Notes under the pieces: generated by a model
Told to the model about the DNA's origin: nothing
The model's database searches: none
What the model saw: the letters and a program-made list of their open reading frames with translations, nothing else
Shown here: piece after piece, positions 11 through 50,470 of the stretch
How positions within the stretch are numbered: the stretch's first letter is position 1
How the letters are laid out: the number at the start of each line of letters is the position of its first letter
Source of the DNA: Gautieria morchelliformis
Taxonomy: Eukaryota > Basidiomycota > Agaricomycetes > Gomphales > Gomphaceae
Length of the DNA stretch: 64,000 nucleotides
Assembly (NCBI GenBank): GCA_015179125.1
Contig: WHVA01000330.1
Location: forward strand, 62,001 to 126,000
Direction of reading: 5' to 3'
Made by a program: the position numbers and the translations under genes

Positions 11-1382
11 ATGGATAATGAGACACAGGTAGATGCAGATTTCTTCCTGTGCTATACCATACCGAACCGGCTACCCACATTTCAGGATCTAGTGTTATCT
101 TCTCTGCGGGATCTCGAGATGCTCGGACAGGGTATTGACACGTCAGGCATGTTCAGCACTAATGAGTCGCTGGAGGATCTCGCCACACGACACCTGCCTT
201 ACTTGTTGGTGAAATATGTTGCAGCCGAAATGGAGAGCAGAATAAAGACTACGAATCGCGAGGAACGTATGAAGAGGCTTGGGAACAGCCAAGTGCGCTG
301 TCTGACTGGTATTCCTAACGAGATAATGACATTGAACTGTTTTGCCATGAGTAGCGGGACTTGCAATCGTTTCTTCATTGGGTGCACCAATACGACATTA
401 TCTCAGAAGAGCAGCAGAAGCTGTATTTCAGGAAGTTAGCTGGCATCAGAGACCCTGCAAAAAGACGGGAGTTAAAGATCACACAGTTCAAGGCGGAGAA
501 AGAGCTACGTAACAGCCTAGAGGCAAGTCTCGCTTCATCAGGCCAATATGCCCTTTATTTATATGCTATGGATATGTACAGGTAATTTGCGCACGTAAAG
601 GGCGGTCTAGCGTGGATTTAAGTGATCAGTTTGGTTTAGTAGCATCAATGTTACCGCTCCCCGACGCGTCCGAAAGGGGACAGCAGGCTGATGACGACAA
701 CGACGACGACGAGACCCTGCGTGACATATATCTACTCGTTATTCGACTCGTATGGGTACAGGCGCAGTCTCAACTCGAAAGCATGGAGCAGGAGTTGGAG
801 CTACTACATAGCGCTCCGCCGTTAGAATCAGAACAGCCCCAGACAAGAGCCCATGAGGATGAGACATGGAGACTGGATCTCCCCGTTAACACTAACATAG
901 GTGGTTCGGACGGCAAAGGGCCATTAATGGATTCCCGTGGAAGGGTAAGAAACAGATCAGCTTGCGAGTGACGTGATATGGCTCATTAGACAAGCAGCCT
1001 CTCCGCCCCTTCACTATTCTTCCAGCAGGCACATCTTCGGATAGAGTGCGAATGCAGGCGGAAGTGTTTCGACCAGATCACAGACTACCTACTATGACCA
1101 TGGACGAGTATCTCGAAGAAGAGAGGCGTAGAGGCAACATCATCACCGGAGGAGGGTCAGTACGCCACCAACAGGATCGCATTCAGTTAAACAATTGTTT
1201 TTTGCAGACCACAATCCCAACATGCTCCAACTCGCACTGAACAGCTGACGTTGGATTCTGAAATGGATGGTACTGGCGAAAGCGAGCTGAAGGCAGAAGA
1301 AAAGAGACAAGAAGAAGAACGTTGGGCTCGGTACACAGACATACATCCGAAAGGAGAAGGAAATACAATGAATCGAGGATGA
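11..1382 (+). CDS. TAP42: TAP42/alpha4 (IGBP1) family PP2A-associated regulator
   Basis: TAP42-family proteins bind catalytic subunits of type 2A phosphatases and connect them to TORC1 signalling in the cytoplasm. The N-terminus has the family pattern ESLEDLATRHLPYLLVKY. An intron at about 293-354 joins in phase to RDLQSFLHWVHQYD. The helical core continues through KRRELKITQFKAEKEL and ETLRDIYLLVIRLVW, with an acidic low-complexity stretch between. The C-terminal part has the conserved KQPLRPFTILPAGTSSDR and MTMDEYLEEERRRGNIITGGG, and the protein ends in GEGNTMNRG before TGA, matching the usual HRRGEGNRMNRG-type terminus. At least four introns are present. The start at 11 is the first ATG and fits family length, although only 10 bases of upstream sequence are visible. 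The next gene starts 72 bp downstream on the same strand. Confidence 0.93.
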
Positions 1383-1454
1383 CCAATGTGACCATACTTG
1401 GTGATGTACTGTACCTAGGTAGTTGTGTATCGTTGTGTACGCGTCTTCATCGAC

Positions 1455-4400
1455 ATGAAACGAGCAACAGACACTCGCGGTGGGGAAGGTGCTTCGGAGA
1501 GGCCTTCTAAACAACTTCACACAGAACAAGTCTTCTCGACAGTGATGGCTTGCTTCACCGACGAATCTGACGTCAGAGCAAGCGATCTTACCGATAAAAA
1601 AGAACTCCCTGAAGACAGGCATATCTTCGGTCAGATATTCATGCTATGGCCCGTTATTAACAACAAATGTAAAGTGCAACTTAAAACTGGGTCTGACACT
1701 CTGGATCTTGTGTTTGAAGGGCCAAGCGTGCAAAGTCTTGGGTTCATGGTGAAGGACATGGTACGGATCGCGCTAAAGGGTGCAAGAAAGGAGGCCAAGC
1801 CAGCGGGGAGTTCTAGGGCATTGCCCTTCAAGCTCGTTTTCTCCAATGGTGCAATTGTACAACTGCTTGCCTCCCAAAAACGCGAGAAGGATGAAGTAGT
1901 GAATTTGTTTAAAGGTCTTTGTCGTTATGCATCTCCTTCTCGCACTAACCATCTTATGAACTTCCATAGTTATCGAGGAGAGCAAAAGAAGAGCAGACGA
2001 GGAGTGGTTCAACCCTCCCTCTGCAGTGGACCTTCTTCCTGAAACTGCCAACGAAGTTCCGTCCCAAGACAGTGAGGTTAATAAACCTCAGATCCACTTC
2101 CATCACAGCATCGATTCAGTTCCCAGAGATATATCCCTTGATTCGGCTCCCAAAGATACTCCCCTCGAACAACCTCCACGTCATAAGGACAAGCGGGTTA
2201 AGAAACGGGACACGAGGCGTGCTCGGGACTCCAGCAATAGGGCTACTTCGGATACTTCCACGACAGACCCAAAAAATCCGGCCCGATCAGATGTACTGGC
2301 GAAGAAGGCGAAGAAGAAGAAACAGGCGGCGAAACCTAGGAATGCTGAAGCACCTAATACCTCCATCCAACCCGTCCCCATGCCTTCGCCTCCCCGGGAT
2401 CCTGCGCTCGACTTAGTTGCCGGATTCCACTCTAAAAAGGTGTGTCCGACAAAAAAGTGCATCATTACGACCTTTGGTGATTCTGATACCGCCTAGGGAG
2501 GACAATATACCCCTATAGCACAAGCCACTCATGGAATGGCCTGTTCGCTTGTAGGTATTGTGGCGGACGTGGGTGAGACCAAACCAACCCCAACTGGCGG
2601 TGAGCTTATACAACTTCGTCTGGGCCCACGTGCTCCCCGTAGAATGACAATATGGTCATAGAGCGTAGCAAGCGGTTTAATCTTGTCGATCCTTCCTCAT
2701 CCTCTGGAAGTGGAATATCTGTGACCATATTTATTGCGGCACCAGACGAAGAGCTTCTACCCTCTGCGAGGTTGGGTCAGGTCCTATTACTCCGAAATGT
2801 CAAAGTGAGCCCCAGCATTACATTTCTCAGATGACTTTAGCTCGTACAGGTCAAGGACTTTGCTGGAAAACCACAAGGAACATGCTACAAAGATTCATTT
2901 CAATGGTGTGGATATGATCCGGCCCAAGGGAAGCATTTTTACACATCAACAAGGAGTTCATCTTCCCCCCTTGGGCCATCGTCTGTTAGGGGTTCGAACC
3001 ACGATCCTTTCTTCAAGGTTTCTGCAGCCGAACTAGAGTATTTTGTCAAGATTTCTGACTGGTGGAGAGCACTCAATGAAGCTCAGCAACGCAATGTCGT
3101 TGATGATAGCCAGGGAGCTGGTAACATCCACCTCATCTTACAGCCACGTCGTAGCCGTCAAGTGGCCACCATTTCGGAATTTGAAGTGGGTGTATTTGTC
3201 GATTGTGTGATTGAGGTTAGTCAGGTGGGGTTGTGGGGTTAAAGCACACGTCAAGCTCACATTCGCGCATAGCTTCTAGAGGTTTGGAAGGGCGACATAA
3301 ATTCAACTATTTATGTCACAGACTACAGTGAAAACGAACATCTTTACGATCAAATTGATGCACAGAATTATCCCATTGGTCAAAGAACATTAGTTGTCAC
3401 CCTTTGGGATGGGCCACATGCTATGGCGGAAGACTTGGAAGTCAAAAGCTTTTATCTCCTCGAGAACATCAAAGTCAAGGTGGGGAGGACTGGCTACCTC
3501 GAGGGTTCGATAGGATATCAGGACAGGGGAATTCGAAAAATAGGACCAGGATCAACCCAGAAGAACTTCGCTGAACTCCTCCTGTAAGCCATCTGTTGTT
3601 GTACTCAGTGTCCAACCCTGTTGATGCATATATGAACTCAGTCGGAAGAAAGAATATGAAGAAAATCCACACCATTCACGAATTAAATATAACGAAGAAC
3701 ATGCCCAAGTACCGGAACCAATGCAGCAAGGTCATCAAATTACTGTGGCTAAAGAGCCTTCAAGTTCTCGAAGCAGTGCGTCACCAGCCGATATGCCCAA
3801 CATTGCCTAAACCCGTAACAACAGACAGTGCTGTAGAATGTTTGCACACGGACCAAAAATGCAGCTCGATTGCCGAGCTGACGCAGTGCACAAGATGCCC
3901 CAATAGGTTCCGCATTCGAGCTCGAATCATTGAGTACTATCCCCGGGACATTAAAGACTTTGTGAGAGTCGAATGCAATATGTGCCATAGAATGTACGTG
4001 ACCGGGCCATGCATTCAATGTTACGAAATCTTCTCATTGTATATCAGTCTGGATGATCGGTACAACCTGTGTCCAGACTGTGGAGACCTAGCCGACAGCT
4101 CGAGGACTGTGAGATATCAATTTGCGATTCGCGTAGCCGATGAATCAGGAGAACTGAACGTTAGCGTGAGCAACGCGGAAGCGGTGAGTCGGATCGAAAG
4201 TGGGTTGCAGTTGATCTGATGATATATTAGGACCTTTTCTTTGGTGGGCTAAGCGCCAGAGACGCCAGAGATGATACCGAGGCTTTGAAAACGCGACTTT
4301 CGCCGCTGCTTGGTCATTTGTACAAGTGGCATGAAGAATTCGACGACAAGGCCAAGAATGACCCTGGACGATGGTTAGACTTGTGTGTCTACAGCTGGGT

Positions 4401-35398: not shown

Positions 35399-35400
35399 TA

Positions 35401-35747
35401 CAGCCGTTTGCAGTCAAGTCTGGACTCCGACGCGCGTCGTACTTTTTCAGCCGCTTTATAGCTAAACACACCCCCTGATTTTTCCTTTACAACTAGACGT
35501 TATCTCAGCTAGCTTCCTTAATAAAAAACACTCAGAAAATCAACATCTAGCCTCTCACGAAGAGCTTTTAGCTCGGGAGGTCGCCGTTCATTGGGGGCCG
35601 CAACCAGGCCTCTTGCGGCCCTTGGGGGATTTTTCCAAAGCTCCTACGCCATTTCACCACACCGGCCCTTTTAGAAAGTGAAGTCCCGGTCCTGACTGGA
35701 GCTATCACGAAGAGTTTTTGCCGGTGTCTATTTTCTGGTGAGTGGAA
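35401..35747 (+). repeat. Left terminal inverted repeat of element A
   Basis: 347 bp, matching 38829-39175 in inverted orientation with a few mismatches, e.g. near 35443 and 35472. The outer end is CAGCCGTTTGCAGTCAAG. The inner end contains a GGTGAGTGGAA block close to the start of the transposase gene. Confidence 0.92.
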
Positions 35748-35820
35748 CCGTGGTTTATGGGCTCGAGTGACATTCTCTAAGTGTTCCCACGCCTTGCGTT
35801 GTTTCGCAGCTCCGCCCACC

Positions 35821-36995
35821 ATGCCCAACGGGATTCGGGTGTCTGAGGACTTATGCTGGGCGATTATTCGTATGCTTTCAGTACTCCCTATCGCCGAGGT
35901 TTCTGCATACAGTGGAGTGAGCGTTAATAAGATCAAAAGCATCCGGGCTTTGCATCATCGAACCGGTGAGGTTGTCAACGATTATGGATCGAGGAGGAAG
36001 CGGAGGGCCTTGAGGACAGTGGATATTGAGGTGCGCGTCTTCAATGTATTTCTTGGCTAATGCTCACTATTGGATTACAGCTACTCCATGGGTGCTTGCG
36101 TCAAAACTGCGACACTTATCTGGATGAATTACGGGCGGCTTTGCGAACCATTCATGGTGTTACTATATCTCTCGCTACTATATGGCGATCATTACGGGCA
36201 TCGGGTTTCTCAATGAAGAAGGTGAGTAAATGTTATCTCTGCAGAGCTTTGGAGGCGCTGTTCTGACTGCGTAAAGCTCACACGGGTGGCTGCGGAGCGT
36301 AGTGCACTCAAGCGTGCAGATTTTGTGGCAAGGATAGGTAAGTATTCGCGAGAACAGCTGGTATTTGTGGATGAAAGTGCGGCCGATCGTCGGACAACTT
36401 ACCGAGGGAGGGCATGGGCCATTCGAGGTCAGCGTGCATTGCGGAAGGCTTGTTTTGTACGAGGCAAGAGGTGAGTGATGGCAATTAGTGGCGTGCGAGG
36501 GGACTAGCTGAATGGGTACAGGTACTCGATTCTTCCGGCACTCACGATCAACGGGATACTGTATGTTACGATTCTGGAGGGGTCATTCACCTCGGCCACC
36601 TTCGCACAATTTATTGTGCAGTTGCTGGACCAAATGAGCCCGTATCCGGGACCCAATTCTGTCATTGTGATGGATAACTGTAAGATTCACAAGTGCCCAG
36701 ATATTTTGGAAATGATAGTGGAGCGGTATGTGCGTATGTACTTTGGCAGCTCGCGTATTGATTTTATTGTCACAGGGGTATGCGGTACGAGTTCTTACCA
36801 CCATACTCGCCGGATTACAATCCTATAGAAGAGGCATTCTCAGCGATCAAAGCCCACCTCAGGCGCGATGGTGACTTGGTTCGGGTAGGCATGACACAAC
36901 AAGACGATACGGATGTATATGTACGTTTGCACAACGCTGTGTGGTCCATTACAGCCAAGGATGCACAAGGCTGGTTCAGTCATAGTGGATATTAG
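35821..36995 (+). CDS. DD34E transposase of element A (IS630/Tc1/mariner superfamily)
   Basis: Cut-and-paste transposase. From ATG 35821 the N-terminus, ISEDL-like then [20 protein letters not shown], is a helix-turn-helix DNA-binding domain. A second one follows ([20 protein letters not shown]). The catalytic triad is intact: Asp in [15 protein letters not shown], Asp in [14 protein letters not shown], and Glu in [20 protein letters not shown], with 34 residues between the second Asp and the Glu. Four introns with standard borders (about 36031-36080, 36222-36276, 36472-36521 and 36727-36777) keep the frame. The protein ends WFSHSGY at 36995. No stop or frameshift was seen, so the gene could encode an active enzyme. 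It is convergent with the second gene of the element. Confidence 0.9.
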
Positions 36996-37042
36996 GTATA
37001 GGAGTGTATCTACTGTATTTCTAACAAGAAGGCAAGCTTCGC

Positions 37043-38765
37043 TCAATGATACCTACCACGCTTGGCACGGTGTTTCTCATTGGCCTCATGCTTGCGTATT
37101 TTAGCTACTTCTTTCGCTGCCTGCTTCAAAATTACCTTGGCGGTTCCTTCGACAAGGCCTGGACAATGTGTGAGCATCTCAGGGACGGTGAGCCCATCTG
37201 CCAGCTGTGAGATCCTAATATAGCCTTGTCCTCGGAGTGGCAGGGCATGTGGCATGAAGACATGCCCATCTTGACCGAGTGGACCCTGCTCCAATTTAGC
37301 TAGCCATTCTTCGACACGGGGGAAGAGCGTGGGATCCTCAATCTCCTCCAGATCGGAACTTGGGTTACTTTCCCACGTGCGCGGTGTTTGTGCACTGGTC
37401 CGTGGCTCTGAACGTGGGGTCTGTGGATAGTGGCCATAATATGGTGGCGGGGGTGGTGGTGCCCAGTAATGATATGGCACTCCCCCTGGAGGCAGATTGT
37501 ATGGCGCCATATCAGGTGCATGTGCAGGGGGAGCTGGAGCTGGAGCTGCGGCTGGTCTTCCTCTTCCTCGGGCTGGCACTCGGGCATCCAGCGGCCCAAT
37601 GGCCGGGGGCAATTCTTCCAAATCCTTGTCAGCTTTGCCTCGTTCCTAGAATAAATGATCAAACTCGCCCTGCAATAAGTTGTGTGATTTACTCACAAGC
37701 AACAAACCCCACAAGCTCAAATCACTGGATTTTAACTTGTTATGGACACCGCCAAAGCCAATCTTGCAGTATTCCCCACCATGCTCCTGGCAAGTATATT
37801 TCTGTTGTAAAGCAAGCACCCAATGTGCCTGATTCGAACCATTGCGGCCTTCCTCCGGCCCATGGGTACTGTTTCTATCACTGTCGCTGTTATCATTCCC
37901 ATGCTTGCGCTTCTTGCTCAAGTGATCGCCTTTGGTCTTTGCTTTACCCTTCACCTTCTCCTGTCCATGCTCTTTAGGCCGTAAGTCAAATAAAATTACC
38001 TCAAAATCCTTGAGTTTCTTGCTGCGTGCTTTTGGAACCTTCTGTTGAAGCAGTTCCTCATGTACTGCAGTTGCCCTGTCCTTTAACTCAAGCCAGTGAC
38101 CAAGCGTGTTCAAGAGGCGTGCGGGTGCATCTTTTGTTTCCGTGCTGAGCTTGTAAGACAAATCCAGCCGCTTCATGGCTATATCCATTTTGTCTGCGAT
38201 GTGGTATTGTACGCTTGTCCAGGATGCATCAGACGTGATCTTGAGTGTGTCGATTGTCTTTGGGCCTGTTGGCACCTGGAATGGTATATCCCAGACTATA
38301 CGACATGAGCAAACCGCTCATGTCAGTTCGAGAAACCCCCTTACCAGGTACTTCTACCGCCGACTCATCCTCATCCTCGTCAAATGAATTAATTGACCCA
38401 TGTACAGACTCGGCCCCCAGCTCCATAATATCACTGTCTAACTCTTTTGAATCGTTGTCCATCGCCCTCGCATCACTTTCCAGCTCGGCCTCTATACCCT
38501 TCAATGTCGTCCTTATCGCACTCGCCGAACTCGCATTTCCATCACCTTGCAGCAAAGACAACAAGGCCTCCCCAGCTTGAATTTCAGCGTTGGTGTTTGT
38601 GGTGACTGATGCCCTAGCAGATTCCCATGTCGGTTGTGGTCTAGCTCGTGCTACTGGTCCCGACACCGGTGGCTGTGGCCGCAACATCGTAGTGTCCATT
38701 CCCACGTTCTTCAGGCTCACCGGGACCTTGGCAGGACGGCCCTTTTTTCTCTTTGCTCCCAACAT
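37043..38765 (-). CDS. Element A accessory protein: AT-hook-like N-terminus, CHCH knuckle, SAM-like C-terminus
   Basis: I do not recognise a named family. ATG 38765 gives MLGAKRKKGRPAKVPV, an AT-hook-like basic start. An acidic Ser-rich region follows. Next is a segment (TLKITSDASWTSVQYHIADK, then TLGHWLELKDRATAV and KDFEVILFDLRPK) that could be ubiquitin/PB1-like. A basic patch SKKRKHG may be a nuclear signal. Then comes a C-x2-H-x4-C-x7-H motif (CQEHGGEYCKIGFGGVH, about 37730-37785) with DLSLWG after it. After an intron there is a Pro-rich stretch and a SAM-like end: FPRVEEWLAKLEQG, YIRISQLADGLTVPEMLTHC, AKVILKQAAKEV. The tail KHRAKRGRYH is basic. The same order occurs in the accessory protein of element B, so it is a conserved transposon partner rather than cargo (inference). 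Confidence 0.7.
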
Positions 38766-38828
38766 AGGACAGAGCAATTCTAGACAAGCTTACTCACATG
38801 AGACGCCAGAAAACCACTCAAGAGGACT

Positions 38829-39175
38829 TTCCACTCACCAGAAAATAGATACCGGCAAAAACTCTTCGTGATAGCTCCAGTCAGGACCGGGACTTCACTT
38901 TCTAAAAGGGCCGGTGTGGTGAAATGGCGTAGGAGCTTTGGAAAAATCCCCCAAGGGCCGCAAGAGGCCTGGTTGCGGCCCCCAATGAACGGCGACCTCC
39001 CGAGCTAAAAGCTCTTCGTGAGAGGCTAGATGTTGATTTTCTGAGTGTTTTTTATTAAGGAAGCTAGCTGAGATAACGTCTAGTTGTAAAGGAAAAATCA
39101 GGGGGTATGTTTAGCTATAAAGCGGCTGAAAAGGTACGACGCGCGTCGGAGTCCAGACTTGACTGCAAACGGCTG
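38829..39175 (-). repeat. Right terminal inverted repeat of element A
   Basis: Inverted counterpart of 35401-35747. It ends at 39175, followed by TA at 39176-39177. It lies directly upstream of the PRP45 start codon (39244). Confidence 0.92.
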
Positions 39176-39243
39176 TAATTGGAAAGATGTGACTCTGCGT
39201 TACACACTTGTCACAGAGTTTTACGGTGACCATCCATCTGAAT

Positions 39244-41264
39244 ATGGCTACTGCTCTAGCGTCGTAAGTATCAACCATGTGGCCACAGACTTGATGTATG
39301 TTTTGACGTTTTTCATTTTCAAGTTCTCTGCCGAGGCCAATCCACTCGCGGACGGATGACGAAGAGGAGGCGGATAGCTTACAGGCGGAACCATCTCGCG
39401 CAGTAGTATCACGCAGCGCCGTACCGCCTTATGGACAGCGACGGACGTGGAAACCGCTGAGTCTGGAGGATTATGGCGATGGCGGGGCGTATCCAGAGTG
39501 TCATGTTGCGCAGTACCCTCTTGACATGGGCAAGAAGAAGGTAAGCACACTGTCGCTCACCTGCGCCAACGTAGCCTCATATATGATGCCACCTTGAGGC
39601 GTCGTCTGGAAACACGCTTGCATTGCAAGTCGATAGCGAGGGCAACGTCCGCTACGACGCCATCGCGCACCAAGGACATCGCGAAGGACGTGTCATTCAA
39701 TCCCAGTTCAAGGACTTGGTCCCGATCGCTCATCGCACTGATATCGATGATTCAGAGCGGGCAATGGAACGGCCATCTGAGGAGGAGGTCCAAGCCACTG
39801 CAGACCGTACGCGAGCGGCGCTTGAGAAGCTAGTCAACGGAAAGATCAAAGCTGCACAACCTAAGAATGTCCCCGACAGTCAAGGGAAGACGAGTTTTAT
39901 TCGGTACACACCCGGCCAGCAGAGCGGCGAAGGTGGTCTCAAGCAGAGGATCATTAAGATGTCGGAGGTTGTCGAGGATCCTCTCGAGCCGCCCAGATTC
40001 AAACACAAAAAAATTCCCCGGGGACCTCCTAGCCCGCCACCACCGGTCTTAAGAAGCCCTCCCCGAAAGGCGACTGCGCAGGAGCAGAAAGAGTGGATGA
40101 TTCCGCCTTGCATTTCAAATTGGAAGAACAACAAAGGGTTCACCATTCCACTGGACAAGCGATTGGCAGCTGATGGCCGTGGCCTACAAGACGTGAGTCG
40201 TATGTTGCGGCTAGGGTTTTACTTATGTTCCCTTTTATTTAGGTACATATAAACGATAATTTTGCCAAGTTCTCAGAAGCGCTGTTCGTCGCCGACCGCC
40301 ACGCGCGTGAGGAGGTTCGTCAGCGGTCACTGATGCAGCAGAAGCTTGCGCAAAAGGAAAAGGCCAGCAAAGAGGAGCATCTCCGTACACTCGCGCAACG
40401 AGCGCGAGAGGAACGAGGGGGCATTGTTGCACCAGGTGCCGCAAGCAAGCCGTCCGTCGAGGGACGAACTGCTCTGAATACGAGTCTGGCTGCTTATGGA
40501 AGCGACAGTGGAAGTGGAAGTGAGGATGAAGATAGTGCGGAGGATGAGGAAGCGAGAAAAGTGAGAGATGAGATGAGGCAAGAGAAGAGGCGTGAGAGGG
40601 AAAGAGACATGAGAATGAGCAACATGGGTACTGAACAAAGAGCGAAGCAGTTGGCTAGGTACGGCGTGGATCGGTTCAATGGGGCTTTCGTCTACTGACT
40701 TTGGGTATTCTAGGCAACAACACAGAGACATCTCAGAGAAAATCGCTCTGGGTCTAGCTAAGCCCACGCTTTCTAAAGAATCTATGCTCGATTCGCGGCT
40801 ATTCAATCAAGAGTCACTCTCCACCTCTTTTGGGGACGAGGAGTCGTACAGCTTGTACGATCGGCCGCTGTTTCATGGATCGTCTGCTGCTGCTGCAATA
40901 TACAAGGCGCGTGGCAATATCGCAGAGGGGAACGAGGAGTCCTTTGGTGGAGGGACGGAAGAGGGCATTGGAAAGGCGTTGGGTAACGATAGGTTTGGCT
41001 TGGGGGAGGCGCGGGTTGGGTTCGAAGGGGCACAAGAACAAGAGGTGCGCGAAGGGCCCGTACAATTTGAGAAGGACACGGGGGATGTGTTTGGTCTGAA
41101 TCAATTTCTGGACGAGGCAAAGAGCGGTAGAAAGAGGGGGTTGGACACAGACGCGTGAGTGCCGTCAGCGTCGATAGTTTTTGATTTACTGATGCATGGA
41201 TCACGTTTTCAGGAGTGGGTCTCGCAAACGCCAGCAGCTGGATAAGGCGGGGGAGCGAGATTAG
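39244..41264 (+). CDS. PRP45: SNW-domain splicing factor PRP45/SKIP
   Basis: PRP45/SNW1 is a component of the activated spliceosome and a transcriptional coregulator. ATG 39244 begins MATALAS; a first intron (39264-39321) restores SLPRPIHSRTDDEEEADS. The SNW hallmark follows: WKPLSLEDYGDGGAYPECHV then AQYPLDMGKKK, and LQVDSEGNVRYDAIAHQGH. The core includes IPPCISNWKNNKGFTIPLDK and RLAADGRGLQDVHINDNFAK across an intron at about 40193-40242. Then a charged helix, REEVRQRSLMQQKLAQKEKA, and the acidic tract GSGSEDEDSAEDEE. The C-terminal part, RDISEKIALGLAKP then SLYDRPLFHGSSAAAAIYK, ends after a last intron in QQLDKAGERD at 41264. The start codon lies only 68 bp beyond element A, so the promoter must overlap or include the transposon end. 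Confidence 0.93.
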
Positions 41265-42610
41265 TCGATACTTGGACAGCTGTATGATTATATTATACGT
41301 CTAGAGAGATTTATGCGCGAGTACGCCTTTCCCACTGACGCATCATCAAAATGCTCCCCCCGCGGGCTCTTCACTGTGTGCAGCTCAGCTGATGGCGTGC
41401 TAACCTTGATTAATTGATTCTTGCATCTCCGCAGTAAGCTCGATCTGTATAAATGACAGTCAAGTCGTCGGGCAACTATGGCCATTGCAGTGTATGCACT
41501 CGGCCGCTGGCCTTTAAGCTTTAAGCTATGAAGGTTGGAGAGCTCTCGATCATAGTCGATCGTGTGTCCCGAGCCGACGCCGATCGTTCGAACGCTGATC
41601 TGGATGGAAATCAGGGCAAATGGTGCGCAAGGGTCGACCCCTTGCTCTGGAAATACACCGGGCAAGTGGCACGGAAACTATGAACAAGTGCCTGGGTGAG
41701 ATCCAAATTCTATTATAAGTTGGCCCTTTGTGTATGCAAAATATATTATATTGAGACCAGAACTCGCCATATAATACTCCAAATACTCAGCCCTCGAAGC
41801 ATTAATCGGCGATTTTGCCGCGTTGGTGTAGTCTCAATTGTCTGGCGACGTCCAGCGGGTGCGGGGAGTATCTGGCCAGAGTCAGTTATACTACTTTGAA
41901 TTCAGTTCCAAAAGCATCAAACTTTCCCCGTCAGAAACGAACGTGCTGGGCGACCCAACATGCTTCCAGGACAGTCCTCTTTGCCATGCCCAATATTACA
42001 GTAACACATCATTTCAGGTATTATATCACCCCGCATATCGGGCCATATATGTATATGGCATGGACGCCTCATGCCGACCAGTCAATCAATCGGGCCGATA
42101 TTCCCAGCCTACCAGCATGCAGGGGAGGTCGAGGGAGACCGAAGTTGGATCCTCTCCCGCTCACAGATGACGCCATCACTTTGCGTGACGAACTGGTCAC
42201 AGAAGGTCACCTCGTGGCTATGGTGGCAAAGGACTAAGTATGAAACCATCCCTCCTCCATATAATAATAATTCCCATTAGCTCAAAAATTTACTACGAGT
42301 AGGCTACAACACATAATGGTGAATCCTATATTTTATAAGGCTTTTAGGCAATCTTTGGCCTTGCACAATTAGGATAAGTTGTACGCGCGCCAAATAATTA
42401 CATAAGTGCAATCGAGTTTGATTGGAAAAGCTTATTTAAACGCGCGTGGCGGCGTGATGTTGCGAAATGTAATAAAACAAATTTGCACGGGAGGTTGCGA
42501 GTGCCTTTCAATAATGTTGACAACATGCCTACAGTACTGAGCAAAAGCACTGTCGTCATGCTGGCCCATACAGGCGGTGCTGTTGTATTTATGTAAGATA
42601 AGCTTTATTA
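41265..42610. other. Intergenic region PRP45 to element B
   Basis: About 1.35 kb without a recognised gene. A 41815-42237 plus frame ends in SLPACRGGRGRPKLDPLPLT, which contains an AT-hook-like GRGRPK, but it lacks a supported start and any recognised family. A minus frame at 41288-41665 is equally unsupported. From 42240 the sequence is AT-rich. It ends with TA (42609-42610) at the edge of element B. Confidence 0.45.
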
Positions 42611-43100
42611 CAGCTGTTTCGGGTACATAGGGCGGAGTCTGAAATACATGCCGCCCGGTGCCGCTCGAAAAGATCAAGCTGTATCTCCACAGCAATTGAT
42701 GATTAAGGGTTGGTACTTTGTATATATTCTGTACTATGTAGTAGCTACCCTCTGATATACAAAACCTGGCTTATTCTGAGTTATTGAATATTTGGATAAT
42801 TTCACTTATATGCATCATTATGCACTCAAATTCTTTCAGTAAGGTCTGTAACTTTCTCAGATTATAGTAATATACATGTATAAATGTTGGAAATAGAAAA
42901 CAATGATGTAATCTCCAGGTTATGGAAGGGGGGAGGGGTGCATGTCTGTTTGCCTTCTCCCAGCCTTTTTAGCCTTCTACATAGCCAAAGCCTCAGGTTT
43001 AAGGACTTAAATATAATATAACCTCTATATATACTCTAATTACAATGATGTGACACTATATTTCTTCATCTGCAAGTCTTGCCGGCATGATGTCATGACA
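42611..43100 (+). repeat. Left terminal inverted repeat of element B
   Basis: About 490 bp, matching 48520-49009 inverted. The match is near perfect in the outer 450 bp and degrades at the inner edge (TTCTTCATCTGCAAGTCTTG region). The inner edge runs into a 20-bp palindrome at 43086-43105. Confidence 0.88.
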
Positions 43101-43105
43101 TCATG
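43086..43105. promoter_or_regulatory. 20-bp perfect palindrome upstream of the element B transposase
   Basis: CATGATGTCATGACATCATG is a perfect inverted repeat without spacer, followed by GTCACGTGAC, another perfect 10-bp palindrome, at about 43115. It sits at the inner edge of the left terminal repeat, just upstream of the transposase. A binding site for the transposase, the accessory protein or a bZIP/bHLH factor is possible (inference). The right-hand counterpart is only partly conserved. Confidence 0.4.
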
Positions 43106-43280
43106 CGCGACCACGTCACGTGACAGGCGTTACATGTTGTACCTTGTGCCATCGATGCCTAGATACATCCCAGAACACCTACGACAATGACAAACGTACT
43201 CAGAGGATCTACGAAAACGTGTTATATATCAGAGGTATACACACGAAAAGAAGATTGCTGATATCGCAGTGGATCTCAAC

Positions 43281-44380
43281 ATGTTGCAACGCGTCATCGA
43301 ATGCATTCTGCAACTATGGCGCACTACCGGTGAGGTTATGCCACCGGAACCCGGCAAGAAGGGTAAAAGGAGAAAAATCATGGATCCTGAGGAAATGCAG
43401 GTAAGCAAGCAGCGAACCTTGATGATACCGGATTACGCTGACTCTTATCTGGTTTCTCTCCTAGTTCCTAATTCGGCTTGTAGAACACTTCCCGGACCTC
43501 TACCTTGACGAAATACAGGGTGTCATGCAGCATCTATATGGAATAACTGTTGGAGTTAGCACTCTCTGGGATACAATGACAGAACTTGGGCTCACATGGA
43601 AACGAGTATGTCCTTTTTTTTCTTGTGATTCTTCAACTTATTTACTCCCTCGTTAGTTGTTAAAGGTTGCTGCGGAGCGAAATGAAGACCTCCGACAGGT
43701 TTTCCGTTTCCGAATTGGTCATGAAATCCCCAGCCGTCTTGTATTCATTGACGAGAGCCGGATTGATTGCCGCACCTCATATTGCTTGAACGGATGGGCG
43801 CAGAAAGGGAAAAGAGCAAGATCAAAGGCTAGGTTTGTGCGTGGCACAGGGTATGTCTCCTTCCATGTCTTACTTTCCTCTAATATTTACATCAGTGTAG
43901 GTACTCCCTTCTACCCGCCCTCTGTGATGAGGGGATAATTTATTCCGATGTCCGCGAGGGATCATATGACGCCGACACCTTCCTGACATTCATCACGAAC
44001 CTCATGCCATATCTGAACCAATGGCCCCAGCCGCGCAGTGTCTTGGTGATGGACAACTGTGCCATTCACCATGGTCCTGAGGTTGCCGCAATTTGCCAAA
44101 AACAGTAAGCAATCCTAACAAATTTCCCAAGTAATCTCAAAAATATCTGTTACGCAGTGGTGTGCGCCTCTACTACTTACCGCCATACTCCCCTGACATG
44201 AACCTGATTGAGGAGGCCTTTTCTTACCTGAAGGCATACCTTCACCGCCATGGCACAGAATTTCGGCAAGCGGTAGATGGCAAAGATGAGATGGCTATTT
44301 TGTTATTCCTTCACACTGCTATGTCTTCAATATCAGCTGAACACTGTAAAGGTTGGATGACACATTCAAGGTACTTGTAA
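43281..44380 (+). CDS. DD34E transposase of element B, N-terminus doubtful
   Basis: Same family as the element A transposase. Helix-turn-helix segment: ADIAVDLNMLQRVIECILQL; then after an intron HFPDLYLDEIQGVMQHLYG, ITVGVSTLWDTMTELGLTWK, and KVAAERNEDLRQVFRF. The triad is intact: Asp in LVFIDESRIDCRTSY, Asp in SVLVMDNCAIHHGPEV, Glu in YLPPYSPDMNLIEEAFSYLK, again with 34 residues between the last two. It ends GWMTHSRYL at 44380. The expected N-terminus is visible upstream as YSEDLRKRVIYQRYTHEKK. However, the only ATG in that frame (43155, MPRYIPEHLRQ) is followed by TGA at 43188. Either an unrecognised intron or alternative start exists, or the gene is damaged. ATG 43281 is the first in-frame start after the stop. 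Confidence 0.75.
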
Positions 44381-44463
44381 ATGTACACATCTGTCCTATC
44401 CCTGTACCAGCAGCTAGTGTCAAATATTATGACTATGCTATTCCCACAGCTCTGCACTTTGTG

Positions 44464-44835
44464 GGTGATGTGAGTGATGCAGGGGAAATAATGGAAGCCA
44501 TGAATGAAGTGGAAGTGCAGGGATGTGGGTGATGCAGGGGAAATCATAGAAGCCATGAATGAAGTGGAAGTGCAGGGATGTGGGTGATGCAGGGGAAATC
44601 ATAGAAGCCATGAATGAAGTGGAAGTGCAGAGATGCGGGTGATGCGGGGGAAATCATAGAAGCCATGAATGAAGCAGAAGTGCAGAGATGCGGGTGATGC
44701 GGGTGATGCGGGTGATGCGGGTGATGCAGGTGATGCAGGGGAAATAATAGAAGCCATGAATGAAGTAGAAGTGCAGAGATGCAGGTGATGCGGGGGAAAT
44801 AATAGAAGGCATGAATGAAGCAGAAGTGCAGAGAT
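44464..44835 (+). repeat. About 55-bp tandem repeats interleaved with 9-bp units
   Basis: Units of about 55 bp (GTGATGCAGGGGAAAT, then ATAGAAGCCATGAATGAAGT, then GGAAGTGCAG) occur about six times with small changes. They are joined by short runs of GATGCGGGT. Confidence 0.85.
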
Positions 44836-45400
44836 GCGGGTGATGCGGGTGATGCGGGTGATGCGGGTGATGCGGGTGATGCGGGTGATGCGGGTGATGC
44901 GGGTGATGCGGGTGATGCGGGTGATGCGGGTGATGCGGGTGATGCGGGTGATGCGGGTGATGCGGGTGATGCGGGTGATGCGGGTGATGGGGGTGATGGG
45001 GGTGATGGGGGTGATGGGGGTGATGGGGGTGATGGGGGTGATGGGGGTGATGGGGGTGATGGGGGTGATGGGGGTGATGGGGGTGATGGGGGTGATGGGG
45101 GTGATGGGGGTGATGGGGGTGATGGGGGTGATGGGGGTGATGGGGGTGATGGGGGTGATGGGGGTGATGGGGGTGATGGGGGTGATGGGGGTGATGGGGG
45201 TGATGGGGGTGATGGGGGTGATGGGGGTGATGTGGGTTGATGCGGGTGATGCGGGTGATGATGTGGGTGATGCGGGTGATGATGCGGGTGATGTGGATGA
45301 TGCGGGTGATGTGGGTGATGCGGGTGATGAAATAATAGAAGCCATGAATGAAGTGGAAGTGCAGAGATGTGGGTGATGTGGGTGGTGCAGGGGAAATAAA
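44836..45400 (+). repeat. 9-bp minisatellite (GATGCGGGT)n then (GATGGGGGT)n
   Basis: About 16 copies of GATGCGGGT (from 44836 to about 44985) switch abruptly to about 27 copies of GATGGGGGT (to about 45232), then return to mixed GATGCGGGT/GATGTGGGT units and one 55-bp unit. All frames appear open because the unit is a multiple of three; these are not genes. The G5-TGAT array meets the consensus for G-quadruplex formation on the plus strand. Confidence 0.95.
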
Positions 45401-45427
45401 AGCTTCTGTCACCCGCATCACTGCATG

Positions 45428-45660
45428 CCATGTGTTCAAGGAAGGGTGCAGTTCATGGTGTTGGTTTTGGCATGAGAATCAGCATCAATCCATGCACCAA
45501 CTGTCATGGTCTGGGAATGAGGATGTGCCTCAGTAGCAGCTGTGGGTCTTTGGGTAATGTAGAGACTTCTGTGGCAGGTGAAGTTGACATGTGTTGCCAG
45601 GGAGCATGTTATCCTCTGTCAAGTTGTTGTGAATTTTCTTTGAATGGTGATGCAGATGCA
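45428..45660 (+). repeat. Direct repeat copy 1 between minisatellites
   Basis: This segment of about 230 bp, starting CATGCCATGTGTTCAAGGAA and ending TTCTTTGAATGGTGATGCAG, recurs at about 46066-46330 with indels. It is unique sequence rather than a simple repeat, so a block duplication separated the two minisatellite tracts. Confidence 0.8.
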
Positions 45661-45669
45661 GGTGACAGA

Positions 45670-46060
45670 AGCTTTTATTTCCCCTGCACCACCAGCATCA
45701 CCCGCGTCACCCACATCACCCACATCCCCTGCACCACCCGCATCACCTGCATCAACCCACATCACCCGCATCAACCCGCATCACCTGCATCACCTGCATC
45801 ACCTGCATCACCTGCATCACCTGCATCACCTGCATCACCTGCATCACCTGCATCACCTGCATCACCTGCATCACCTGCATCACCTGCATCACCTGCATCA
45901 CCTGCATCACCTGCATCACCTGCATCACCTGCATCACCTGCATCACCTGCATCACCCGCATCACCCGCATCACCCGCATCACCCGCATCAACCCGCATCA
46001 CCCGCATCAACCCGCACCTGCATCAACCCGCATCACCCGCATCATCACCCACATCACTGC
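45670..46060 (+). repeat. 9-bp minisatellite (ATCACCTGC)n, opposite polarity
   Basis: About 21 copies of ATCACCTGC followed by ATCACCCGC variants. This is the same family as the 44.8-45.4 kb tract, but the C-rich strand is now on plus, so the array is inverted. Long open frames here are products of the repeat. Confidence 0.93.
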
Positions 46061-46065
46061 ATGCT

Positions 46066-46330
46066 ATGTGTTCAAGGAAGTGTGCAGTGCAGTTCATGGT
46101 GTCAGTTCATGGTGTCAGTTCATGGTGTCAGTTTCAGCATGAGAAATCAATCCATATGCTGACTGTCATGGTCTGGGCATGAGGATGTGCCTCAGTAGCA
46201 ACTGTGAGTCCATTGGGTAATGTAGAGACTTCTGTGGCAGGGGAAAGGTCGACATGTGTTGCCAGGGAGTGTGTTAGCCTCTGTCAAGTTGTTGTCAATA
46301 ATGGCCTTTTCTTTGAATGGTGATGCAGGT
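46066..46330 (+). repeat. Direct repeat copy 2 between minisatellites
   Basis: Second copy of the 45428-45660 segment, starting TGCATGCTATGTGTTCAAGG. It has an extra local triplication of TTCATGGTGTCAG at about 46093-46131. Confidence 0.8.
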
Positions 46331-46437
46331 GATGCAGAAGTGCAGTGATGTGGGTGATGCACAGTACTGTGTTGAATTTTGCCAATGGCACAAAATATAG
46401 ATTGATATGAGTACCACTCCTAATTATCTATGCTGTT

Positions 46438-48424
46438 CTAGTGGTGTCTAGCCTTCTTGGACCTCTTCTGCCCACCTCCCACTCCAAAACCATACCTCTT
46501 GCCAGCCTCTTCAAGCTGCTCTATCAGAAACAATGCATCTACTACTTTGAGCTCAAAGGATATCTTCAGGGTCTCCAGAGACATCCATGCAATGCATGTA
46601 AGGGTGATATCGAGGCATTCCTCAGCTTCAAATCTGCTGCACAGAAAATCCCACCTGGTGTAATGACTGAGCTCTTGCTTGCCCTTCAACTCCATGAGCC
46701 AGTCCTGAATTGTTGGTACAACCTGTGCATGAGTATCAGCATTACCAGTGGTACTCATTGTGGACGCCGGCGAATGAGATCGTTTTGCAGGTTGTGAGGC
46801 AGCGCGAAATGCCTGAAACACTTCCGGTGGGAAGTTGATATTGATGGCAGGGGTGGGGGTGGGCTGTTGCAGGGGCTCAGTGCTAGTGTACCTCATTCCA
46901 CCGCGATGTGCGTGGTCAGATGCCACCGGGTTCGCGCTGTAGTGAAAAAATCTGAAATACTCCACATTTGGCGGCCTGTTGAGATCAACGCCCGGTTTAT
47001 GATCCATCTATTGACAAATAGGTGAGTATACACATGTTATGGAAAGAAAACACAAAACTATACCAATTATAATACCCACACCAGCTCCCCTTCATTGCTG
47101 ATAACCTTATGGTGCCCATTGAGGGCACGCGCCATGCAAATTGACCCGGTGTGTTGAGCGCAAGTCCAGACGTCACGCAGCTTCTCCAGCTGCGCTTTGT
47201 ATCCGTCCAAGTTTGTGGCATTGAGGGCTCGCCTGTCCACGACTTCAGGTTCGACCAGGTCTTTCTGCGAAAGGAACAGGTTGACGAGTTCTTTCTTTTT
47301 AGTCTTTGGTTTACCTGTGGTGCCAGTCTGTGCTTTGACCGCCTCTTCTAAAAATTGAAAGAACTGTGAATTAGAGTATATTAGTTTGAATCAATGATGA
47401 GAAAGAAAGAAAAGCTGACCTTGGGGGGAAGAACGATGTCGATACAGGCTTCCACGCCCCTCTTCGCCACCTGATTTACCCACTCGGCCTTCAAGGCCAT
47501 CCAGTCGTCCTCAGTCTCCAGTGCAAAGCAGCGCTTTGCTGGGTCCTTGTAGAAATGAGTTACGAGGCCGATCCTTTTCTCTTCGGAGATCGCATACAGG
47601 CCGAGTACGAAGTGGAGTGTCCCCTTCACCTCGTCAAGAGTGCTCATCGGATTGACGAGCTGCGTTTTGAGCAATCACCCTGATTTGGTTACGGAACTGT
47701 ATAAGAAATTTCATTTCTATGAAAAAATTAGTCAGTAAGCATAAAATAAGAAAAGAAAAAAAGGAAACACAAAAGAAAGAAAAATACGCACGGGCAGGCA
47801 AAGGATCCTTTGCCACTGCATTGGCTTTGCTCACAGCCTTGCCCTTCTTCTTTGGAGCTGGAGGTGGAGATGGCGAGGGTTCCGTCATACCGTCGCGATC
47901 ATCATCGCTGCTAGACACTCCCTCCTCATCCACATACTCAATATCATCATCACCGATGTTGAGTATCTCAGCGTATCCCGGACCATTGTTCGCAATGGGG
48001 ACGTTGGGCTCGTCCTCATCGTCCTCTGGCACCATGCTGAGGTGCGTCTTGCCTGCGATATCAGCGGCCTGGCGCATTTTCATGGAGGTGGGTTCTTTGG
48101 CTGAGTACTGGATGCTTTGGATGTGGTGGAGAGAGTAGCGGTGGGGACTTTAGGTTTGGTGTCGGCCCTGGATTTGGCCGTTGAATGCGGTTTTGACCCA
48201 GCCTCAGTGGACGCATTGATGGCGCCATTCCTCTTTGATGGAGGAGGTATCTTGATAGGAGGTATGCTTCCCTCACGCATTCGAATGGAGGGAGTACGGC
48301 TGCGCCTGCCTTCGATGATAAGGGCAGTGTCAAGTGTGTCGCGCTGACGACTTTTGGGGTTGTTTTCAGGGGGCGGCTCCAAAGGAGTGAGAGCTTTAGC
48401 AGTTTTCTTCTTGATACCAGCCAT
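46438..48424 (-). CDS. Element B accessory protein: basic N-terminus, CHCH knuckle, SAM-like C-terminus
   Basis: No named family is recognised. ATG 48424 starts MAGIKKKTAKALTPLEPPPE, a basic N-terminus with SKRNGAINAST further on. An acidic, Ser-rich linker (EDDEDEPNVPIANNGPGYAE) is followed by APKKKGKAVSKAN. A ubiquitin/PB1-like segment has ALETEDDWMALKAEWVNQV and EACIDIVLPPK (about 47430-47500). The knuckle is CAQHTGSICMARALNGHH (about 47100-47160), C-x2-H-x4-C with His 7-8 residues later, followed by LVWV. The C-terminal part has a Pro-rich linker and a SAM-like module: VPTIQDWLMELKGKQELSHY, DITLTCIAWMSLETLKISFE, LKVVDALFLIEQLEEA. The tail QKRSKKARHH is basic. Gene order and motif order parallel the element A protein, though sequence identity is low. 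Introns near 46990-47075, 47345-47420 and 47640-47790 are approximate. Confidence 0.7.
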
Positions 48425-48519
48425 AATGAAGTGATTAGAATGAAGCTTAGTATGTGTTGAACGCAGCGATGGAGGTCACTACATGGCGCGTAGCGGTCAT
48501 GTGACGGCAGTCATGCAAC

Positions 48520-49009
48520 TGTCACGATATCATGCTGGCAAGACTTGCAGATGAAGCAAGGTACTGTCACATCAATGTAATTAGGGTATATATAGAGGTT
48601 ATATTATATTTAAGTCCTTAAACCTGAGGCTTTGGCTATGTAGAAGGCTAAAAAGGCTGGGAGAAGGCAAACAGACATGCACCCCTCCCCCCTTCCATAA
48701 CCTGGAGATTACATCATTGTTTTCTATTTCCAACATTTATACATGTATATTACTATAATCTGAGAAAGTTACAGACCTTACTGAAAGAATTTGAGTGCAT
48801 AATGATGCATATAAGTGAAATTATCCAAATATTCAATAACTCAGAATAAGCCAGGTTTTGTATATCAGAGGGTAGCTACTACATAGTACAGAATATATAC
48901 AAAGTACCAACCCTTAATCATCAATTGCTGTGGAGATACAGCTTGATCTTTTCGAGCGGCACCGGGCGGCATGTATTTCAGACTCCGCCCTATGTACCCG
49001 AAACAGCTG
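48520..49009 (-). repeat. Right terminal inverted repeat of element B
   Basis: Inverted counterpart of 42611-43100, ending CAGCTG at 49009 and followed by TA. It lies about 95 bp upstream of the start of the second gene (ATG 48424, minus), so it probably supplies that gene's promoter. Confidence 0.88.
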
Positions 49010-49043
49010 TAATGCTCGACGTTATGTGCATCACCAAATCTGC

Positions 49044-49131
49044 AGGTTGAGACGCTGCGCAGTAGGCTCAAAACGTTGCGGTGTCTCTGGGGAGAGCGCT
49101 GTGACTATATGATTGGTGCCGGAACACCGTA
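49044..49131. repeat. Split direct repeat copy (distal)
   Basis: Starts AGGTTGAGACGCTGCGCAGT and ends GGTGCCGGAACACCGTA. It is about 85-90% identical to 49456-49544, in the same orientation. CGGTGT near the middle can pair with ACACCG near the end, so a conserved hairpin is possible. Confidence 0.85.
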
Positions 49132-49455
49132 CTGTAAAATACAAGGAAATCTGGGGAGGGAGAACAGGAGGGTAGACGAAACAAATACAGCGGTGGTGAA
49201 AAGAACGCTTGAGACAATACAATGACTTTTTCTTACTTATATCATTGAGAGACAAACAGGGGCAGGAGAGACACACATGACTAATACAGTCGATTCTGCT
49301 CTGCGGGCTGCCCTGAGGCTGTCAACGCATGAGCTGGTGCCTAGCCAACCGCGGACGGTTCATGAAGGCAAAGAGAGAAGGGAGCGCAGGCTGGCAGGTC
49401 CCTCTACGGTTAGATGCGTGAAATTCATAGATTTAAATCACAACTAACCGATGAG

Positions 49456-49544
49456 GTTGAGACGCTGTGCAGTAGGCTCAAAAACATTGTGGTGTCTCCG
49501 GGGAGAGCGCCATGACTATAGGATTGGTGCCGGAACACCGTAAA
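49456..49544. repeat. Split direct repeat copy (proximal)
   Basis: Starts AGGTTGAGACGCTGTGCAGT and ends GGTGCCGGAACACCGTA. It lies 87 bp from the recombinase stop. About 325 bp separate it from the distal copy. Confidence 0.85.
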
Positions 49545-49631: not shown

Positions 49632-50470
49632 TCAAGCCTCGTGAAGGTCTTGAATATTCTGGAGAACGGGCCTCCCCCAGATAAGGGCTTGGAGCAAGAA
49701 GGGATTCTTGCGGATGTAAGCCTGGAAGGTGTTTGAGGACCAACGACCGGTGGCTTGAATTCCGTCATTGGGAACTCCAGCTAATGCAAGTGCGGTAGCT
49801 CCTCCTGAGCGGATGGATTGGCCGCTTATATGGGGAGGGAAGTGGCGACGGAAATGATGTAAGAACCACTTGCGTGTGGGGATGGATCCGTCAGAGCGTA
49901 GCCACAGTTCAGGGTTTCCTGGGAAGAGCGTGTCGCGAGAAGAAAGGTAGTGAAGGAAGGGGGAGAATGGGTCAATGGCAGTGTTGGTCTTTTGAACGAC
50001 GATGTGATTCCCCTCGAATATCTGGTCAGTTTTGGTGCAAGGGAGAGTATAAGAGTAGTGGTCATCGTTCCAGGTAACGGAGTGATGGAGGGGGACTGAC
50101 TGATGCGACTGCAATTTCTTGCTGTCAGGCCAGACAAGTTCGCTGAGGTGGTTGAGTGTGGCGAAGCCCGAGGTGACCTGTGCTAAGGAAAGGCGGTTGT
50201 CGTGGAGGTCAGAGGGTCCGTAAGTTTGTACAAGGAGCTGCACAAGTGCGGGTTCCAGGGGGCTTTTGCATTTGACTACCGAGCCACAGACACATTTGCA
50301 GCCGTGCAAGGTTCTGGAGGCGAGAGGAGAAGTATGGGTTCTGCAGACATTGGGAAAGTAAATTTCAAGTTGGTTCTGTATTCCTGACAGGTAAGAGATG
50401 ATGGAAGAGGGTTTGATGTGATAGGACATGTAGACGGCGTAAAAGCTAAGGGTTTCTTCAGTTGGATCAG
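49632..50470 (-). pseudogene. Tyrosine recombinase domain of the retroelement
   Basis: The frame from 50429 reads MSYHIKPSSIISYLSGIQNQ, and codons for TEETLSFYAVY lie directly upstream, so the ATG is internal to a longer domain. The catalytic part has GQSIRSGGATALALAGVPND (Arg box) and GRWSSNTFQAYIRKNP with the nucleophilic Tyr. A CKCVCGSVVKC segment lies in the N-terminal half. The recombinase itself seems intact, but upstream frames towards RNase H are interrupted near 50480-50490 by a homopolymer-rich shift. Confidence 0.8.

Follow-up and report, generated by a model that had tools for sequence, protein, structure and literature searches.

Tc1/mariner elements are textbook one-gene transposons. 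In the Gomphales basidiomycete Gautieria morchelliformis, a stretch of 64,000 nucleotides (nt; contig WHVA01000330.1, positions 62,001 to 126,000, hereafter the window) contains two elements, A and B, in which a transposase gene is accompanied by a second gene, here called the partner. The locus raises the question of whether the partner belongs to the transposon and, if it does, what it contributes. An earlier note on this DNA had proposed a two-gene family in which the partner takes part in transposition or in its regulation. Our analysis points to two-component IS630/Tc1 transposons in which the partner would help end assembly or integration. We hold this reading as a whole with modest confidence, and the structural unit itself, two genes between one pair of repeats, with much higher confidence.

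Results

Elements A and B each carry two genes within one pair of inverted repeats

Both elements are flanked by TA, have the ends that the earlier note had given, and carry long inverted repeats (350 nt, 99% complementary, in A; 494 nt, 98% complementary, in B) enclosing a plus-strand DD34E transposase gene and a convergent minus-strand partner gene, so that this part of the description was confirmed throughout (Table 1). Judged from its reading frames, the window copy of A looks intact. The window copy of B is decayed, as indicated by a TGA at codon 12 of the transposase gene and by two losses of frame in the partner gene.

The transposases of A and B matched the Pfam models DDE_3 (E 3e-30 and 4e-27, respectively) and HTH_33 above the cut-offs, and the NCBIfam model transpos_IS630 scored 149.5 to 152.1 bits (cut-off 100) for A, B and a third lineage, C, described below. 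The interval from the second D to the E was 34 residues in all seven transposases measured (A, A2, B, B2, B3, B4 and C). The hallmarks of the IS630/Tc1/mariner group, namely an IS630-type DDE transposase, DD34E spacing, TA duplication and terminal inverted repeats, are all present, and on these sequence grounds we assign A and B to the IS630/Tc1-type DD34E transposons. Mutator-like elements (MULEs) have a target duplication of about 9 bp. Membership of the MuDR/Mutator-like group was rejected: even with E allowed up to 1, scans of Pfam and NCBIfam gave no MULE hit, and the target duplication was TA only, both in two aligned empty sites and at the ends read. Between lineages A, B and C the transposases were 38–54% identical. 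We also saw a further, very uniform transposase group (about 84–86% to lineage C in the last exon; for example C437:330627, C347:48294 and C1083:14347); these three examples had no partner within 8 kb among the matches listed.

Empty sites lack the whole element, and both genes appear to be under selection

We joined 100 nt from each flank of nine insertions with one TA and searched these junctions against the genome. Contiguous matches across the junction were obtained for four of the nine: L072 (matched on C1093 and C171), L073 (C726), L074 (36 listed places) and L077, which holds element A2 (C1, 200/200 nt at 97%). Two empty sites aligned base by base read TTAA, with the element absent. Because the empty sites lack the whole element, the comparison indicates that both genes move as one unit. 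For the A and B insertions of the window and for L019, L022 and L024, no empty site was found among the 40 of 1681 candidates scored, which says little. A T precedes the TA at 30/30 ends found by pattern, compared with 21% of the TAs in the window, and we therefore conclude that the target is TTAA, of which TA is duplicated.

We next estimated the ratio of nonsynonymous to synonymous substitution rates (dN/dS) by the method of Nei and Gojobori. The ratio was 0.08 for the transposase and 0.13 for the partner between A and A2 (dS about 2), and 0.23 and 0.19, respectively, between L072 and L073. Deeper B-type pairs gave 0.13–0.20 for the partner with dS > 2, and the transposase dS was undefined in four of the ten pairs. 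The values for the window copy of B versus L072 (transposase 0.61, partner 0.38) fit a decaying copy. In two comparisons the dN/dS of the partner was thus as low as that of the transposase. Over 21 pairs, which are non-independent, transposase and partner identities co-varied (Spearman 0.72). Small trees of the two proteins, with long branches, agree as far as they are resolved, with A beside A2 and the B-types beside C.

The partner recurs beside DD34E transposases across the genome

Partner, transposase and kinase loci were all taken from lists of best candidates. Partner loci were typed by hand from the listed rows, mostly one row per place, and further exon rows at that place were discarded, giving 183 loci (15 A, 65 B and 103 C). 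Merging five transposase searches, including 30 rows of one and 83/150 and 29/150 rows of two others, gave 233 loci; the rows left untaken seemed covered already. A listed DD34E transposase lay within 8 kb of 116/183 partner loci (A 8/15, B 42/65, C 66/103), and the two genes were convergent in 113 of these 116 pairs (A 8/8, B 40/42, C 65/66). Chance would place a transposase within 8 kb of about 3% of loci, and an unrelated-repeat control gave 0/40. An earlier count, made with 188 transposase loci, had given 99 of the 183 partner loci near a transposase, 98 of them convergent. One transposase may serve two partner loci (C632, type A), and two C632 partner loci and one C160 locus were counted as near at about 7.6–7.8 kb at most. 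Seen from the transposase side, a listed partner lay within 8 kb at 117/233 loci. The arrangement therefore goes beyond chance, and partner homologues in this one genome do not lie mostly away from transposases. Listed matches of the two genes in B and C were mostly about 0.5–5.5 kb apart; in A the convergent gene ends are about 48 nt apart.

Among the seven A-type partner loci without a listed transposase, four (L019, L022, L024 and L026) were derivatives of about 1.5 kb with A ends on both sides, in which only C-terminal fragments of the partner were matched. L029 contained transposase remnants and one A end, and L014 and L025 had neither a transposase remnant nor an A end within the surrounding 3.3–3.6 kb.

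The partners of A, B and C appear to form one family

The order of motifs that had been described for the two partners could be read from the frames of both: W-x2-LK, then C-x2-H-x4-C-x7-H, then P-x-[VI]-x2-WL-x2-L, and a tail of RYH or RHH. The family has a conserved region upstream of the zinc-knuckle-like motif and a C-terminal SAM-like helical domain; in partner A the motif corresponds to exon 2 and the SAM-like helices to exon 3. The Cys and His positions of the motif are kept in the A and B types and vary in C, where the partner on contig C220 has W-x2-LK, VDIVL, C-x4-C-x4-C-x7-H, HGVTLKVPP..FEDFHY and P-x-I-x2-F-L. Pfam scans gave no match for the partner, SAM and enzyme domains included, and a sequence search of the PDB with the partner returned nothing credible. 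A beta-grasp or PB1-like fold for the upstream domain is a guess by eye with no computed support.

Profile comparison, in which some partner alignment rows are composite, gave E 7.7e-10 for B–C (317 columns, probability 96.5), E 1.8e-5 for A–C (179 columns, probability 78), and a marginal E 1.3e-4 for A–B directly (34 columns around the zinc motif, probability 54). Against shuffles that preserve composition and not local clumps, for which z is generous with such biased sequences, global alignment gave z of -1.0 for A–B and 0.1 for A–B2, i.e. no better than the shuffles, compared with 10.1 for B3–A, 7.9 for A–C and 17.8 for B–C; a partner from Ramaria gave 3.8 against B2 and 20.3 against C. Since B–C and A–C profiles align and the direct A–B comparison is weak, we conclude from the sequences that the A and B partners belong to one family joined through lineage C. 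The alignment of the two partners that the earlier note had looked for is thus obtained by way of C and is weak between A and B themselves. Protein searches for the partner, two of which scored 7,998 and 8,000 candidates, yielded 12 different relatives among the candidates scored (P0001–P0004, relatives of partner A, included), 11 from Gautieria and one from Ramaria rubella.

Structure prediction supported the proposal in part. In the model of the A-type relative P0001, residues 441–520, a block with a predicted local distance difference test score (pLDDT) of 73–84, matched SAM domains in VIA-align, consistent with a SAM-like C-terminus; the same residues matched RAD51 N-terminal parts equally well, and the rest of the model has low pLDDT.

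Lineage C adds a FunK1 kinase

Lineage C is an abundant DDE_3 lineage. It was taken as partner-free when tblastn with partners A and B gave no match, a view rejected once its partner was seen by reading frames. A full copy of about 8.7 kb lies on contig C220 (C220:171687-180349; L079, L076 and L078), where a pair of 668-nt inverted repeats (95.5%), located at 171687 and 180349, encloses three genes. A minus-strand kinase, which scored 61.4 bits for FunK1 (PF17667; cut-off 24.1) in the reading of L076, lies between the transposase and the partner, and the partner order is the same as in A and B. The proposed two-gene family is therefore too narrow a description. The C220 copy is itself broken, with frame breaks in the partner. 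Its left end is TTAACCCG, which the end pattern missed, and the inner parts of its repeats contain GGGTGC-rich arrays. The partner-side end of lineage C was observed in this one copy; the near-constant spacing at other C loci (2756–3008 nt, 5th to 75th percentile) argues for a C220-like arrangement in other copies.

We typed 83 of the 118 matches from a genome-wide PF17667 search. A transposase lay within 8 kb of 31/83 kinase loci, convergent in 31/31. A C partner on the same strand lay within 4 kb of 28/83, and partner and transposase were both within 4 kb of 23. These positions indicate that part of this genome's FunK1 loci is transposon-borne. Many of the kinase loci without a listed transposase may be host genes.

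Repeat edges and surroundings of the window elements

In A the transposase gene starts 74 nt and the partner gene 64 nt from the inner edge of the adjacent repeat, on the side of the element's interior; in B the corresponding distances are 55 and 96 nt. A TATA-like stretch lies upstream of the genes in both repeats of B. Because the start codons are so near the inner repeat edges, the repeats are probably promoters, at least in A and B. The C220 start codons lie several hundred nt further towards the interior of the element than those of A and B. No convincing repeated or common motif was found in the repeats of A, B and C.

At both inner repeat edges of A (35725-35745 and 38831-38851) we observed CTGGTGAGTGG, a possible splice donor, GTGAGT, shared by the two genes; AG dinucleotides lie just 5' of each ATG in A. 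The right end of A lies about 70 nt upstream of the possible first ATG (placed by reading; window 39176-39243) of a gene with a SKIP/SNW domain (PF02731, E 9e-48, open reading frame 39623-40252). Adjoining the right end of B, stretches of about 30 and 62 nt each occur twice at a spacing of 410–411 nt (window 49044-49542). A minus-strand open reading frame of 265 amino acids (window 49632-50429) resembles, by eye, a mobile-element tyrosine recombinase and is without a Pfam match.

Table 1. Coordinates of the elements in the window and of the short derivatives of A (aa, amino acids)
Feature	Coordinates	Strand	Remarks
Element A	35401..39175, 3775 nt	.	TA at 35399-35400 and 39176-39177; ends CAGCCGTTT
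Left inverted repeat of A	35401..35747	+	inverted-repeat analysis, 99% complementary
Right inverted repeat of A	38829..39175	-	pairs with left repeat, 99% complementary
Transposase A, DD34E	35821..36995	+	open, 322 aa; exons by reading, no transcript
Transposase A exons (5)	35821-36030, 36081-36221, 36277-36470, 36522-36725, 36776-36995	+	
Partner gene A	37043..38765	-	open, 540 aa; exons by reading, no transcript
Partner A exons (3)	38765-38345, 38295-37697, 37645-37043	-	
Element B	42611..49009, 6399 nt	.	TA at 42609-42610 and 49010-49011; ends CAGCTGTTT
Left inverted repeat of B	42611..43100	+	inverted-repeat analysis, 98% complementary
Right inverted repeat of B	48520..49009	-	pairs with left repeat, 98% complementary
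Transposase B, DD34E	43155..44380	+	broken: in-frame TGA, codon 12
Transposase B exons (5)	43155-43400, 43465-43605, 43657-43850, 43901-44104, 44158-44380	+	
Partner gene B	46438..48424	-	frame lost at two places, exons 1 and 2, relative to the contig C133 copy
Partner B exons (about 4)	48424-47792, 47716-47420, 47363-47076, 47007-46438	-	
Head-on arrays, 9-bp unit GGTGATGCG	44467..46060	.	between both genes of B; no role shown
Derivatives of A	L019 1084-2584; L022 1083-2590; L024 551-2056; L026 about 602-2066		both ends and partner remnant, no transposase match

Discussion

From the co-movement of the two genes and the low dN/dS of the partner we infer that the partner takes part in transposition or controls it. 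In the scheme we favour, the long inverted repeats, being present in two copies, would supply promoters from which both genes are co-expressed. The partner would use its zinc and basic regions to bind DNA close to the ends and its SAM-like domain to self-associate, and would help to assemble both ends or to integrate the element, in a manner analogous to that of mudrB in the integration of maize MuDR. The kinase of lineage C would act by modifying one of the two other element proteins or a factor of the host. A bolder version, in which fungal IS630/Tc1 elements have independently evolved a MuDR-like two-component machine with a partner that polymerises on the ends and is required for their pairing or for integration, promoters in the repeats and FunK1 recruited as a control, is tentative and strikes us as doubtful.

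Several observations weigh against the favoured scheme. No listed partner lies within 8 kb of 116/233 transposase loci, at which the partner may be absent, truncated or unlisted, and 67/183 partner loci likewise have no listed transposase at that distance; inspection of these solitary partner loci covered the seven of A type and at most a minority of those of B and C. The repeats of A, B and C have few common 9-mers beyond the ends (0–3), so that no common binding sites were seen, and the GTGAGT resembling a splice donor at the repeat edge was seen in A only and not in A2 (L077). Many dS values, including that of A versus A2 (about 2), are saturated or undefined. The mean pLDDT of the whole partner model is 42, with confidence confined to the C-terminal domain and values below 50 in the zinc part, and helical bundles can reach middling Z scores in VIA-align without kinship. 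Promoter use in the repeats is deduced from the position of the genes.

Other explanations were weighed against the same evidence. The partner, together with the kinase in C, might act on the host, by countering silencing or by altering the cell state in favour of element expression. We regard this as unlikely, although SAM domains commonly mediate protein-protein contacts, FunK1 also occurs apart from elements (at 52/83 kinase loci the lists show no transposase within 8 kb), and other fungal DNA transposons are described, in the accessible passages of one paper, as carrying alpha-kinases and TET/JBP dioxygenases, the latter considered anti-silencing by its author (PMC12730594). Lineages A, B and C all carry the partner, in contrast to the kinase; such a distribution suits a core component more than an optional, host-directed one. 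No enzyme domain was recognised in the partner. Less probable still is that the element makes its own repressor or copy-number control in the form of the partner, perhaps as a protein that interacts with the transposase, or that overlap of the convergent transcripts serves as antisense control. The closeness of the gene ends in A and the existence of deletion derivatives in which the repeats and remnants of the partner survive would suit such regulation; however, the wider spacing of the genes in most B and C copies means that overlap is not general, and the derivatives matched only C-terminal fragments of the partner.

That the partner is a captured host gene hitch-hiking as passive cargo is already disfavoured and appears very improbable to us. 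Gene capture is common in DNA transposons generally, but this partner occurs in three lineages whose transposases have diverged to 38–54% identity, shares one orientation in 113/116 co-located pairs, and has its named relatives in Gautieria (11 proteins) and Ramaria (one); its low dN/dS also speaks against passive cargo. We find it barely credible that unrelated neighbouring repeats or nested insertions have been mistaken for one element. Repeats abound in the region, and B itself contains minisatellites; by contrast, both genes lie inside one 98–99% inverted-repeat pair, the whole unit is absent at the empty sites, and the arrangement recurs genome-wide.

If these transposons depend on, or are controlled by, a second conserved protein, they would offer a natural comparison for accessory input to DDE transposition, and their MuDR-like layout would be a testable case of convergence. 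The kinase-bearing lineage C would be one route for the spread of FunK1 in fungi; if the MuDR-like reading is true, the recruitment of FunK1 as a control would parallel the zinc-finger kinase found in ciliate TBE elements, and transposons would count among the carriers of FunK1 genes in fungi. Recognition of the unnamed partner family would also let annotators identify some "hypothetical proteins" as transposon genes. Literature titles, the starts of abstracts and text passages contained no description of the partner or of a FunK1-bearing Tc1 element, a weak negative given that most subscription papers and Repbase lay outside the search.

The statement in the earlier note that canonical Tc1/mariner elements carry only a transposase is right and is not the whole picture, since ciliate TBE and Fanzor-bearing Mariner elements have extra genes. 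As far as the available text of the cited papers describes them, the closest fungal relatives are Tc1-OP1 and Tc1-MP1, one-ORF (open reading frame) Tc1 elements with inverted repeats of 169 and 141 bp, of which Tc1-OP1 (5,659 bp) was described as the longest element of its group reported to that date (PMC9977792). Like A and B, they combine an IS630/Tc1 DDE transposase with long inverted repeats in fungal hosts, the sites of Tc1-OP1 being TACA|..|TGTA; unlike them, the elements studied here have separate partner genes and reach 6,399 nt in the window copy of B and about 8.7 kb in the C220 copy. The ciliate TBE/Tec elements also join a Tc1/mariner DDE transposase (DD34E according to PMC7325037) to extra genes (PMC4724952, PMC7325037), the TBE elements encoding proteins of 22 and 57 kDa, whereas the kinase found here belongs to the fungal FunK1 family. 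Mariner elements with Fanzor1, endonuclease or methyltransferase genes (PMC3627910) similarly unite a Mariner-type transposase, TA duplication and accessory genes in one element; no domain of these three kinds was recognised in our partner, which has no Pfam match. Fungal IS3EU elements, as presented in the accessible passages, carry TET/JBP genes and an alpha-kinase opposite to the transposase (PMC12730594) and so resemble lineage C in pairing a transposase with a kinase in opposite orientation in a fungal DNA transposon; they differ in transposase superfamily and kinase family, and the elements described there include no such partner. In architecture, A and B most resemble maize MuDR, in which the mudrA transposase is accompanied by the novel mudrB, required for integration, and 200 bp terminal inverted repeats are the promoters of both genes (PMC8224964, as excerpted). 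In both systems two genes start close to the terminal repeats; the transposase superfamilies are unrelated, and for A and B the position of the start codons suggests a comparable use of the repeats as promoters.

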